Positions 31,129 to 34,943 of a stretch of DNA of 64,000 bases are shown piece after piece (positions within the stretch are counted from its first letter, which is position 1; each line of letters starts with the position of its first letter). Source of the stretch: Kordiimonas sp. SCSIO 12610. GTDB taxonomy: Bacteria; Pseudomonadota; Alphaproteobacteria; Sphingomonadales; Kordiimonadaceae. The notes under the pieces were generated by a model, which had not been told where the DNA came from, did not search any database, and was given only the letters and a program-made list of their open reading frames with translations. Location of the stretch: NCBI RefSeq assembly GCF_024398015.1, contig NZ_CP073747.1, positions 1,994,501 to 2,058,500 of the forward strand, in the 5' to 3' direction. Made by a program: the position numbers and the translations under genes.

Positions 31129-31572
31129 TCAATCTTCCTTAGCGCCCAACATGGCAGTAAGCTTTGCTTGACAAACCATTGTGCCATCAACTGTTGCTTC
31201 GGCATCAAACTTCCACACGGCACCGCCGCCGCGGGTTTTCGTAAGTTTCATTTCCAGTCGATCGCCTGGTTCAACTGGTTTGCGGAATTTCGCCCCATCA
31301 ATGCCCATAAAATAAACAACGCGGCCCTGCGCATCTTCACCAAGAAAATCAACAGCGATGACCGCAGCGGTTTGCGCCATCGCTTCTAAAATAAGCACGC
31401 CTGGCATAACCGGCTTTTGGGGGAAATGCCCAGGGAAAAATGGCTCGTTAATCGTAACATTCTTAATGCCTTTTGCGCTTTCACCCGGTACGACATCAAC
31501 CACTTTATCAATTAACAAGAATGGATAACGGTGTGGAATTAATTCCATAATCTGATTTATGTTGAATTCCAT
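31129..31572 (-). CDS. fabZ: 3-hydroxyacyl-ACP dehydratase FabZ
   Basis: Hot-dog-fold dehydratase of fatty acid elongation; 147 residues. Catalytic His49 in FFPGHFPQKPVMPG and Glu63 in LILEAMAQ are both present. It starts behind a perfect AGGAGG. The upstream skp gene ends with a hairpin terminator only about 35 nt before this start, so fabZ depends on read-through or a promoter in that gap. The lpxD gene normally found between skp/bamA and fabZ, and the lpxA after it, are absent. Confidence 0.97.
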   Translation of the reverse strand: MEFNINQIMELIPHRYPFLLIDKVVDVVPGESAKGIKNVTINEPFFPGHFPQKPVMPGVLILEAMAQTAAVIAVDFLGEDAQGRVVYFMGIDGAKFRKPVEPGDRLEMKLTKTRGGGAVWKFDAEATVDGTMVCQAKLTAMLGAKED

Positions 31573-31656: not shown

Positions 31657-32250
31657 TTAATTGCCGTCTGTCGGTGTCGCAGAATTCTGTGGAACAGTGC
31701 GCTGTGGCAATGTAAGCGTTACAGCTGGCAACTCTGCATCGAGTTGTTCGATAAATTCAGTTGTCACATCGATACCGGATGCTGCGCCCATAACAAGGCG
31801 CTTAATCATAATGATTTGTGCACTACGGTCTGCAAGGATTTTGCGAATTACAGGCTGGCGCGCACGCTCAACTTGTGTCGCAGCTTCCTGACGGAGCTTA
31901 TCAAACTGAAGTTCTGAAATCTGAAGAGCACGCTGTGCATTCACAAACTGTGTCTCCAATCCCTTCTTTTCTTCTTCGTACTTGTCGTTACCAATGATTG
32001 ATTTTCGTTTCTCAAGGTCCGCTAGCAACTGCTCCAGCTGCCCGCCACGTGCGACAAAATTACGAAGCTGCACGATGTTCTGGCGAATTTCATTCACCTG
32101 AAGGTTAAAGTCTTTATAGGCTGCGGCTTCACGTTCCACGCGTTCATCGTCAACAATCAGGATCTGTTGTGCGTCAAGAGCGGTTCCCAATCCTAAAAAT
32201 GCGATCATCGCAGCCGCAGTAATTTTTATCATTTTAAGCACAGAGGCCAT
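31657..32250 (-). CDS. skp: Periplasmic chaperone Skp/OmpH
   Basis: Holds unfolded outer-membrane proteins on the way to BamA; 197 residues. The signal peptide is about 1-27 (AAAMIAFLGLGTALDAQ). A long charged coiled-coil region follows (about 40-135, ILIVDDERVEREAAAYKDF onward), forming the tentacles, then a short C-terminal beta segment and an Asn/Pro/Thr tail. Start ATG has AGGAA 6 nt upstream. It follows bamA after 23 nt and is co-transcribed. Confidence 0.9.
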   Translation of the reverse strand: MASVLKMIKITAAAMIAFLGLGTALDAQQILIVDDERVEREAAAYKDFNLQVNEIRQNIVQLRNFVARGGQLEQLLADLEKRKSIIGNDKYEEEKKGLETQFVNAQRALQISELQFDKLRQEAATQVERARQPVIRKILADRSAQIIMIKRLVMGAASGIDVTTEFIEQLDAELPAVTLTLPQRTVPQNSATPTDGN

Positions 32251-32273: not shown

Positions 32274-34943
32274 TTAGAATGTGGTACCCACATTGAATTG
32301 AAGTGTCTGAGTATCATCTCCGAGCTGACGACGCAACGTTCTTGCGAGGTCAATTCGGAATGGACCGAATGGTGACTGCCAAGAAAACCCGATACCTACT
32401 GAAATACGCGGACTTGGAGAGTTACCTGATATACATGTAGCGCCTGAAAAACCTAACTCCGTAGATGCTAAATCCTGAATAGCTGCCGGCCCCGAAATAC
32501 CTTGTTCTGCAACGAGAAGGGAAAAGTCATTAAATTGCTGAAGGCTAAACGGACATGAAGGGAAAATAGAGTTTTCTGCACGGAACAAGGCACCGACATC
32601 AAAAAAGGCAGATGCGTTAATTCCGGATTCGAGCGCGGCATTACCAAGCGGGAAAAAGAGCTCGGCGCGTCCAATATAAAATGCTCGGCCACCGACAACC
32701 CTAAACTGTTGCTCAGGGGCTAATGCCTGGCCAACAATATCGAATTCACGAGGGCCCACCCCTGAATTATCAAAACCACGTAGCCTTGGACCACCAAGGA
32801 AAAACAAATCGTTCAAACGAACCTGCTGGTTAATCCCTTCAATAAGGCCACCTTCTGCACCTAAACGCAGCGTCCAACCATTGAACGGAGTCCAATAATT
32901 ATCGATACTTGCTGTCGTTTGGAGGTATTTTACACTACCACCCAGGCCCGCAAAGTTTTGATTGAACCGAATGGATCGTCCACGAGTTGGCCGGATGATA
33001 CTATTCCTACTATCGGTGCCGAGTGTATAGCCAATAATCGATTGCGTTCTCGACCCAATGGAGTTTGCGAAGAAAGGATTGAAATTTAAGAGAACGTCCT
33101 CTGACTCTGCAACACTCAGAGATCCATCACCATTCTCATCAAAATCGGCTTCAGTGATTACCCCATCCCCATTTAAGTCGGCCGAAGCAAGTAAATCGGG
33201 GTTATTTAAACTAGCCTCCGCAATATTAGCAATTGTTGTACCGGCGAGGCCTATCGATTGAAGCCCAAACGACGCGTCATCCTGCCTGATAGTATAACGA
33301 AGTCCAAGTGACCAAAATTCATTCAATGCAGCACCAGCACGAAGCTGAAAACCAAGCGCTCTGTTCTGCAAACCATTCTGGAAAATACCATTACCAAGTC
33401 CATTGGTGTCCGTATTGGTTACAAAAACATTGAAGCCACCAGAAATACTGCGCCCTAACAAATACGGTTCGGTAAAGTCTAAGTTAATATTCTGTTGGAA
33501 ACTCGATAAATTTAACGAAAGTCCTAGCGATTGCCCTTTACCAAACAGATTGCGCTGCCTGACGGAAGCATTGAAAATAAAGTTTTGGACGCTAGAGAAA
33601 CCGGCCCCAAGGTTGAGTTCACCTGTTGCTTGCTCTTCTACACCGACATCCAATACTAGTCTATCAGGCGTTGACCCCGGTAGTTGTTCAATCTCAATCT
33701 CGCGGAAGAAACTTAAACGGTTTAGACGGTTTTCCGAACGATTCACGAGCGCTGAATTGAAGGCATCGCCTTCTTGAAGGCGAAATTCGCGGCGAATAAC
33801 TTTGTCAAGTGTCGTTACATTACCATGGATACGAATACGCTCCACATATACCCTTGGTGCATCAAGCACCCTAAAGGTAATATCAATTGTTCGACCTTCA
33901 CGGTTTCTGTTAATCCGTGGTCTGATATCAACAAAAGCATACCCAAGTAGGCCAGCTGCATTCGTAAGTGCCTCAATGGTTTTTTCAATTGCTTCTGCGT
34001 TATAGATTTGGCCCTTGCGCATAAGAAGGAATGCTTCGAACAAAATCGGATCAACATCACGAATTTCGCTATCGACGCTGATTTCGCCAAATTCGTATAT
34101 TTCGCCTTCTTCAACAGTGAAAGTTACAAAAAAATCTTCCCGGTCAGCAGTCAATTCCGAAACAGCAGAAACAACACGGAAGTCTGCATAGCCTTCGTTC
34201 AAATAAAACTGGCGAAGAACTTGCTGGTCAAAAGCTTGCCGATCTGGGTCAAAGGTATCGTTGGAACCAAAAATCTTCCACCAACGCGATTCCTTCGTTG
34301 CCAAGACGTCCTTTAAATCGCCGTCGCTATATTTTTTATTACCAATAAAGTTGATTTTACTGATCCGCGTTTTCGGGCCTTCTTGTATCTCAAAAAGAAC
34401 GTCAACACGGTTTTGTTCTAACTGAACAACCTTTGGCTCAATGATTGCCGCGAACCGACCGGAATTCCGATATAAAGCAAGTATCCGCTCTACATCTGCC
34501 CGTACTTTTGCACGTGTGAAAATCGTTCTGGGGCGCAATCTAACCTCTTCGAGAAGTTCATCACGGTCCAAACGTTTATTACCTTCAAAAACAACGCGGT
34601 TAATGATTGGGTTTTCAACAACCCTGATAATCAAAGTACCTTGCTGCTCGAGGATTTCAACATCTGCAAACAATCCAGTTGCAAACAGGTTTTTTGTACT
34701 CTCATTGATTTTTGCCAGGTCAAATGGGTCGCCTGTTCGAATAGTAAGGTAAGACGCTACCGTTTCTGGCTCTACACGCTCGCTACCGATAACATTGATT
34801 TGCCGGATAATGGGAACCTGTTGGTTCTGCCCCGCCCCTGCCTGCTGTGCAGAAACTGAACCTGTCACTATTGTCGCAATTATGATTGATGCACAAAAAC
34901 CAACAACCAGATAGAAATTATTTAACTGCAAAACTTTGCCCAC
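32274..34943 (-). CDS. bamA: Outer-membrane protein assembly factor BamA
   Basis: Central Omp85 component that inserts beta-barrel proteins; 889 residues. The signal peptide is about 1-33, then five POTRA domains (about 45-460, e.g. VVENPIINRVVFEGNKRL, GPKTRISKINFIGNKKY), then a 16-strand barrel with the conserved GGPRLRGFD-type loop (LGGPRLRGFDNSG) and a C-terminal Phe. Longer than E. coli BamA because of a barrel-loop insertion (about 570-640) with two EF-hand-like loops, DLNGDGVITEAD (589-600) and DENGDGSLSVAE (602-613). It starts with GTG. Lies between rseP and skp, the usual order. Confidence 0.96.
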   Translation of the reverse strand: MGKVLQLNNFYLVVGFCASIIIATIVTGSVSAQQAGAGQNQQVPIIRQINVIGSERVEPETVASYLTIRTGDPFDLAKINESTKNLFATGLFADVEILEQQGTLIIRVVENPIINRVVFEGNKRLDRDELLEEVRLRPRTIFTRAKVRADVERILALYRNSGRFAAIIEPKVVQLEQNRVDVLFEIQEGPKTRISKINFIGNKKYSDGDLKDVLATKESRWWKIFGSNDTFDPDRQAFDQQVLRQFYLNEGYADFRVVSAVSELTADREDFFVTFTVEEGEIYEFGEISVDSEIRDVDPILFEAFLLMRKGQIYNAEAIEKTIEALTNAAGLLGYAFVDIRPRINRNREGRTIDITFRVLDAPRVYVERIRIHGNVTTLDKVIRREFRLQEGDAFNSALVNRSENRLNRLSFFREIEIEQLPGSTPDRLVLDVGVEEQATGELNLGAGFSSVQNFIFNASVRQRNLFGKGQSLGLSLNLSSFQQNINLDFTEPYLLGRSISGGFNVFVTNTDTNGLGNGIFQNGLQNRALGFQLRAGAALNEFWSLGLRYTIRQDDASFGLQSIGLAGTTIANIAEASLNNPDLLASADLNGDGVITEADFDENGDGSLSVAESEDVLLNFNPFFANSIGSRTQSIIGYTLGTDSRNSIIRPTRGRSIRFNQNFAGLGGSVKYLQTTASIDNYWTPFNGWTLRLGAEGGLIEGINQQVRLNDLFFLGGPRLRGFDNSGVGPREFDIVGQALAPEQQFRVVGGRAFYIGRAELFFPLGNAALESGINASAFFDVGALFRAENSIFPSCPFSLQQFNDFSLLVAEQGISGPAAIQDLASTELGFSGATCISGNSPSPRISVGIGFSWQSPFGPFRIDLARTLRRQLGDDTQTLQFNVGTTF
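33105..33179 (-). other. Paired EF-hand-like calcium loops within BamA
   Basis: Codons for residues 589-613. Loop 1 has D-N-D-G-I-D at positions 1, 3, 5, 6, 8, 12 (dockerin-like Asp at 12). Loop 2 has D-N-D-G-L-E at the same positions, the canonical EF-hand pattern. A single Phe separates them. Calcium binding is inferred from this pattern. Confidence 0.7.

Follow-up and report, generated by a model that had tools for sequence, protein, structure and literature searches.

The BamA protein of Kordiimonas sp. SCSIO 12610, encoded in the 64,000-nucleotide stretch of DNA analysed here (the window), carries two 12-residue, EF-type loops back to back in extracellular loop 4 (eL4) of its barrel. The tandem motif is beyond chance, and it probably serves as a structural calcium staple at the centre of an eL4 enlargement specific to the family. 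This reading builds on the sequence itself, on the conservation of the ligand positions, and on the place of the motif in models of the barrel, from which we infer calcium as the ligand. BamA, the EF-type loop, and the calcium-ordered surface loop are all known parts; two back-to-back EF-type loops in BamA eL4, kept in a family that lacks LpxC, seem to be undescribed in the literature searched. That search, on BamA, the BAM complex, and Omp85 (titles and abstract openings of the papers listed), returned no calcium sites in BamA itself.

The window protein is a clear BamA. It scores 708.7 bits against the NCBIfam equivalog TIGR03303 (cut-off 297), shows five POTRA stretches plus Omp85 in Pfam and 16 barrel strands, and has an RGF-type motif in loop 6 (LRGF at 721-724, with R722, G723, and F724 invariant in the family alignment A1). 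The minus strand of the window includes the series cdsA-like cytidylyltransferase gene, dxr, rseP, and bamA, continued by an OmpH-like gene at the skp position and by fabZ, with a convergent citrate synthase gene on the plus strand beyond fabZ; the genome is a single contig of 3.50 Mb. The OmpH-like gene has no NCBIfam match. In E. coli, the order for comparison is skp, lpxD, fabZ, then lpxA and lpxB; in the window, lpxD, lpxA, and lpxB are absent beside the skp-like gene and fabZ. The loop census finds two cysteines in eL7 of all 25 Kordiimonadaceae BamAs, and a Cys797-Cys837 disulphide there is possible. A cysteine pair is also present in loop 6 of E. coli BamA, as read from its alignment with the window protein.

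Table 1. Features of the window, in window positions, with the basis for each where given.
Feature	Position	Strand	Description
bamA	32274..34943	-	889 aa, GTG start; signal region, five POTRA domains, 16-stranded Omp85 barrel
eL4, enlarged in the family	33057..33266	-	residues 560-629; between strands 7 and 8 of the models; length census
Short helix before loop 1	33180..33200	-	residues 582-588; DSSP on models
Calcium-type loop 1, DLNGDGVITEAD	33144..33179	-	residues 589-600; sequence
Calcium-type loop 2, DENGDGSLSVAE	33105..33140	-	residues 602-613; sequence
Helix after loop 2	33081..33113	-	residues 611-621; DSSP on models
Cys797 in eL7	32553..32555	-	invariant column in alignment A1
Cys837 in eL7	32433..32435	-	invariant column in alignment A1
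Skp/OmpH-like gene adjoining bamA	31657..32250	-	Pfam OmpH E = 0.00023, 21.8 bits, below cut-off 32.4; position of skp in E. coli
fabZ	31129..31572	-	NCBIfam fabZ; directly after the skp-like gene

Residues 589-613, encoded at 33105-33179, read DLNGDGVITEAD-F-DENGDGSLSVAE. The two 12-residue stretches agree at positions 1 (Asp), 3 (Asn), 5 (Asp), and 6 (Gly); position 8 is Ile or Leu, and position 12 is Asp or Glu. Each thus has the acidic or amide residues at 1, 3, and 5, the Gly 6, and the D/E 12 of an EF-type loop. A sequence-only reading of the window had proposed two such patterns in tandem, and both lie at exactly the nucleotides and residues that it gave. The pattern D.[DN].[DNS]G.[ILVF]...[DE] has these two as its sole matches in the window (stop-to-stop frames of at least 150 codons). 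Shuffling the whole protein 20,000 times never produced a tandem, and single matches arose at 0.0004 per protein; shuffling residues 556-625 alone 200,000 times produced a single match in 0.03% of cases and, again, no tandem.

Of the EF-hand pair that the same reading had seen here, one half stands and the other does not: two EF-type loops do occur in tandem, but they do not form the paired EF-hand fold of helix-flanked loops, being 13 residues apart with one helical turn between them. This spacing, together with predicted helices at 582-588, 598-601, and 611-621, makes the element EF-loop-like rather than an EF-hand domain. The Pfam model EF-hand_5 matches the window protein at E = 0.012 and 15.5 bits, under its cut-off of 25.9; in the genome search it reached 28.6 and 27 bits, over the cut-off only with neighbouring stretches summed, and it matches 10 of the 23 members of alignment A1, the window protein included (E ≤ 0.1; best 0.00012). 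What the window loops share with EF-hand and dockerin loops is the 12-residue length, the ligands at 1, 3, 5, and 12, Gly 6, and the hydrophobic residue at 8, as well as weak PDB matches whose best rows are mostly calmodulins plus one dockerin (E at least 0.003); what sets them apart, besides the spacing, is that the one helical turn is shared and that they have neither paired hands nor 22-residue repeats. In type I dockerins, a repeat of about 22 residues that carries an F-hand helix occurs twice. As a parent fold, the dockerin repeat was rejected because a spacing of 13 is wrong for it; Dockerin_1 scored 13.7 bits (E = 0.076; cut-off 22.9). The thrombospondin type 3 repeat was set aside as absent from the Pfam matches listed.

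Two structural models predict the tandem on the cell exterior. The full-length model (50 sequences) is weak as a whole, with pLDDT 75, pTM 0.52, and TM-scores to solved BamA of 0.3-0.5, and for this reason the barrel was also folded alone (AlphaFold2, 56 sequences, pLDDT 87, pTM 0.82). By our count, both have 16 barrel strands, with two short loop strands of the barrel model (306-309 and 410-413) left out, and both hold the tandem loops between strands 7 and 8; the strand count thus gives eL4, and eL3 was rejected as the insertion site. In the full-length model, the module runs in the order helix 582-588, loop 1, one turn at 598-601, loop 2, and helix 611-621. The barrel model, which like the full-length one is metal-free, has pLDDT of about 80-89 (means of ten) across both loops and compares with solved BamA at Z of about 32 over about 337 residues, a value for the whole barrel rather than for the eL4 module. 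The proposal that the insertion belongs to an extracellular loop therefore agrees with both models, which predict it outside, as eL4, and not in the periplasm. Its proposed size of about 70 residues fits eL4 as a whole, which has 70, but the added length is about 57 over the median of 13 in other orders.

In E. coli BamA, eL4 is likewise the surface-exposed loop between strands 7 and 8 and holds the Fab1/MAB1 and nanoE6 epitope, but it is without a calcium-type loop. The same alignment anchors enclose residues 526-568 of the E. coli protein and 547-633 of the window protein. The inhibitory Fab1 is reported to contact Y550, E554, and H555 in this E. coli loop and to stabilise BAM in its lateral-open state; nanobody E6 is a further eL4 binder (PMC8263589). 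MAB1, which binds L4, is reported to inhibit folding (PMC6287456). The three residues contacted by Fab1 fall within 526-568, opposite the insertion in the alignment.

Conservation was followed across 25 distinct Kordiimonadaceae BamAs—the window protein, 22 from a search of relatives, and 2 from a named scan—among them proteins identical to those of Pseudokordiimonas caeni, Kordiimonas sediminis, and Eilatimonas milleporae. Seven loci were dropped as carrying identical BamAs (L032-L035, L037, L040, and L043), and two draft genomes of 410 and 250 contigs (G004 and G006) gave no BamA match. The family corresponds to the NCBI order Kordiimonadales; what we call the same order in sampling also covers sphingomonads. 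With eL4 boundaries that we set from the full-length model, the loop spans 66-90 residues in 25 of 25 family members and contains D.[DN].[DN]G in 21. In 23 of 25 the ligand positions of loop 1 are kept or recognisable, and 18 of 25 have a complete loop 2 (D at 1, D/N at 3, D/N/S at 5, D/E at 12), counts that score as losses the two deepest-branching proteins, L023 and L024, which have no alignable loop 1, though L024 retains one DTDGDGILTKAE. Gly is found at position 6 in 19 (loop 1) and 18 (loop 2) of the 25.

Across the 23 loop 1 rows, which were chosen by a loose pattern (polar letters at the ligand positions), Asp occupies positions 1 and 12 in 23/23, Asn or Asp position 3 in 23, and Asp, Ser, or Asn position 5 in 23, and positions 2, 7, 10, and 11 have entropies of 2.3-3.2 bits. 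Because these rows were pre-selected by pattern, loop 2 alone is an unselected test, and there the entropy at each of positions 1, 3, 5, 6, and 12 is below that of any of the seven remaining positions. Asp codons alternate between GAT and GAC with the residue unchanged; the comparison used for shuffling and codons has one or more misregistered rows, where the pattern matched too early, and the position counts come from a separate one. Ligand positions that stay constant between variable neighbours would look like the pattern expected of purifying selection on metal ligands. Random loss of ligands in homologues had been named as one observation that would speak against the proposed role of calcium; we find that some members have indeed lost ligands, but the losses are not random, and the ligands are steadier than their neighbours. 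Five of the 25 have a degenerate loop 2 (L003, the other genome of the same genus, and L019, L021, L022, and L036), and the latter four cluster in a tree built without eL4. One of the 25 also has two cysteines in eL4, with no motif there.

Outside the family, BamA matches were sought across the class and obtained in 141 genomes, own genome included, and 110 of these BamAs were read (our own, 29 loci, and 80 regions); the 31 left out were among the least similar or partial, and one locus, L134, was grouped with the sphingomonads. In 108 BamAs of other orders, eL4 has a median of 13 residues, cysteines occur in it in 6, and the motif is found in eL4 of two (L154 and L165, from one family with LpxC; genomes G178 and G043) and in eL7 of two (L113 and L125). 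In L154 and L165, eL4 is 34 residues long and has a single DTDGDGVDD-type motif flanked by two cysteines, which may have been gained independently. Scattered calcium-type motifs also occur in extracellular loops beyond eL4 of three alphaproteobacterial BamAs (L058, L096, and L100). The sphingomonads differ again: in 72 BamAs from Sphingomonadaceae and near relatives, taken from the best 80 of 583 confirmed stretches, eL4 is 20-36 residues long and holds two cysteines in 72/72, and a single D.[DN].[DN]G is found in 33/72, a fraction that under this sampling is no census. With the window BamA these proteins share the loop and, in 33/72, a DxDGDG-type motif, but theirs is one motif in a shorter loop with two cysteines, and within this best-80 sample it is present in some near relatives and absent in others. 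Among all 212 distinct BamAs, a total that includes the sphingomonad set drawn from the best 80 of 583 stretches, 63 D.[DN].[DN]G motifs were counted by protein and region: 62 belong to extracellular loops, and the one exception lies in the POTRA region. This suggests that extracellular loops of the essential BamA may gain metal or disulphide staples repeatedly, and the sphingomonad cysteine pair plus motif looks as if covalent and metal staples in eL4 were alternatives or helpers.

We favour a structural staple, for which we propose the following mechanism. An essential barrel with so long a loop at its surface would need that loop fixed, and in the Kordiimonadaceae two calcium-type loops in eL4, along with the eL7 cysteine pair, might do this. 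In the predicted architecture of helix, calcium loop, one turn, calcium loop, and helix, two calcium ions would fix both arms of the loop; eL4 would be unfolded in the low-calcium cytoplasm and set into a rigid cap once outside. Most samples from which Kordiimonadaceae are known are marine, and calcium in seawater, at about 10 mM, hardly varies. At seawater-like calcium even weak sites would be constantly filled, which argues for a structural rather than a sensory role. Two ions may not be needed everywhere, since loop 2 is degenerate in 5/25 and loop 1 unrecognisable in 2/25, and affinity may be low, as the loops are too close to pair in the manner of EF-hands. It also counts against the staple that L025, from another family of the same order, has a long eL4 (45 residues) that is motif-free.

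Calcium on the outer face of the outer membrane has precedents. The calcium sites of BtuB differ from an EF-type loop. In BtuB, calcium bound by extracellular-side aspartates of an outer-membrane barrel orders an extracellular loop and limits loop motion, as we suggest for eL4, but its two sites lie in a five-aspartate cage coupled to cobalamin binding, and the protein is not an Omp85 member (PMC7360065). Closer to BamA, a study of the Flavobacterium BAM complex describes metal ions, which it assigns as calcium, in BamM, an extracellular subunit (PMC12611786). The F. johnsoniae complex resembles the present case in having calcium outside on BAM and a BamA loop insertion, there a binding platform, but its calcium is in a separate lipoprotein and its BamA insertion is in loop 5 (PMC12611786).

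The sites might instead couple calcium to control of BAM: once filled, those in eL4 would shift the loop dome or the lateral gate, and calcium outside the cell would in this way tune OMP assembly. We regard this as unlikely: in a marine habitat with near-constant seawater calcium a sensor would have little to sense, and loop 2 is lost in 5/25 relatives. Its appeal comes from E. coli, where eL4 is a known allosteric site at which binders inhibit or shift the assembly machine (Fab1 and nanoE6, PMC8263589; MAB1, PMC6287456) and where residues 526-568 align to the insertion region; by this analogy, calcium regulation of BAM would be possible.

The lipid of the outer leaflet enters through a further suggestion of the sequence-only reading—that surface calcium would be especially meaningful if LPS were missing. 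At the level of genes the premise is borne out. LpxC exceeds its cut-off in 0/41 genomes of the order (the window genome and 40 relatives; one sub-threshold match, in G014), a profile search for LpxB gave no match in the same 41, and the controls for both searches were positive in E. coli and Caulobacter. LptD is kept in 40/41. From gene content, the Kordiimonadaceae appear to be without the usual LPS, and LptD, kept where LpxC and LpxB are unmatched, may carry another lipid; a literature search for Kordiimonas lipopolysaccharide showed no title on the point among the papers listed. A lineage seemingly without the LPS pathway and with calcium-type sites in eL4 would be a natural case in which to ask how ions and the surrounding lipid shape the BAM surface.

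A link between the calcium loops and LPS loss does not follow. LpxC is unmatched in 25 of 142 class genomes, five of the 25 being named by elimination; four had no BamA fetched (G056, G062, G063, and G113), two are our own genome and G028, and in the 19 from other orders the motif is absent from eL4 in every case. Nor does eL4 carry it in any of the 7 BamAs that represent the order's other families, and the sole family outside the order that has it possesses LpxC. As a general rule, then, the association with LPS loss is contradicted across the class sample, and since LpxC is lost elsewhere without the motif, the co-occurrence within the order may reflect shared ancestry.

These counts also speak against the idea that bound calcium, or the acidic loop itself, ties BamA to anionic head groups in an LPS-free membrane, for example to glycosphingolipids of the sphingomonad kind. 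The idea is consistent with LpxC and LpxB being unmatched and LptD kept in 40 of the 41 genomes, with the lack of lpxD, lpxA, and lpxB beside skp-fabZ, and with reports that Sphingomonas lacks LPS (PMC2635482) and that Sphingomonas koreensis seems unable to do without sphingolipid synthesis (PMC11324152). The motif is nonetheless found in 0/19 LpxC-less genomes from other orders and in 0/7 BamAs from other families of an LpxC-less order, and one LpxC-bearing family has a single motif, which makes such bridging very unlikely. A broader version, in which the eL4 loops of an LPS-free BAM act as a calcium switch that sets the gate or ties the complex to a glycolipid leaflet, replacing the part of cation-bridged LPS, strikes us as improbable. 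Least credible of all is that an acidic, Gly/Asn-rich loop drifts or diversifies under phages or contact-dependent toxins and is EF-like by appearance only, as EF-hand models under their cut-offs for the window protein and ligand loss in some relatives might suggest, because drift would not hold ligand positions while the intervening ones vary and no tandem arose in 200,000 shuffles of the stretch.

Three large genomes (G105, G126, and G132; 5.4-5.9 Mb) from other alphaproteobacterial families also have no LpxC match, and LPS loss may be repeated within the class. Within the Kordiimonas genome, D.[DN].[DNS]G has no match in LptD. A frame of 941 codons (L237; G000:C1:2790281), whose start we take to resemble a TonB-dependent receptor, contains DQNGDGQVDAPES, and calcium-type loops may be common on this bacterial surface.
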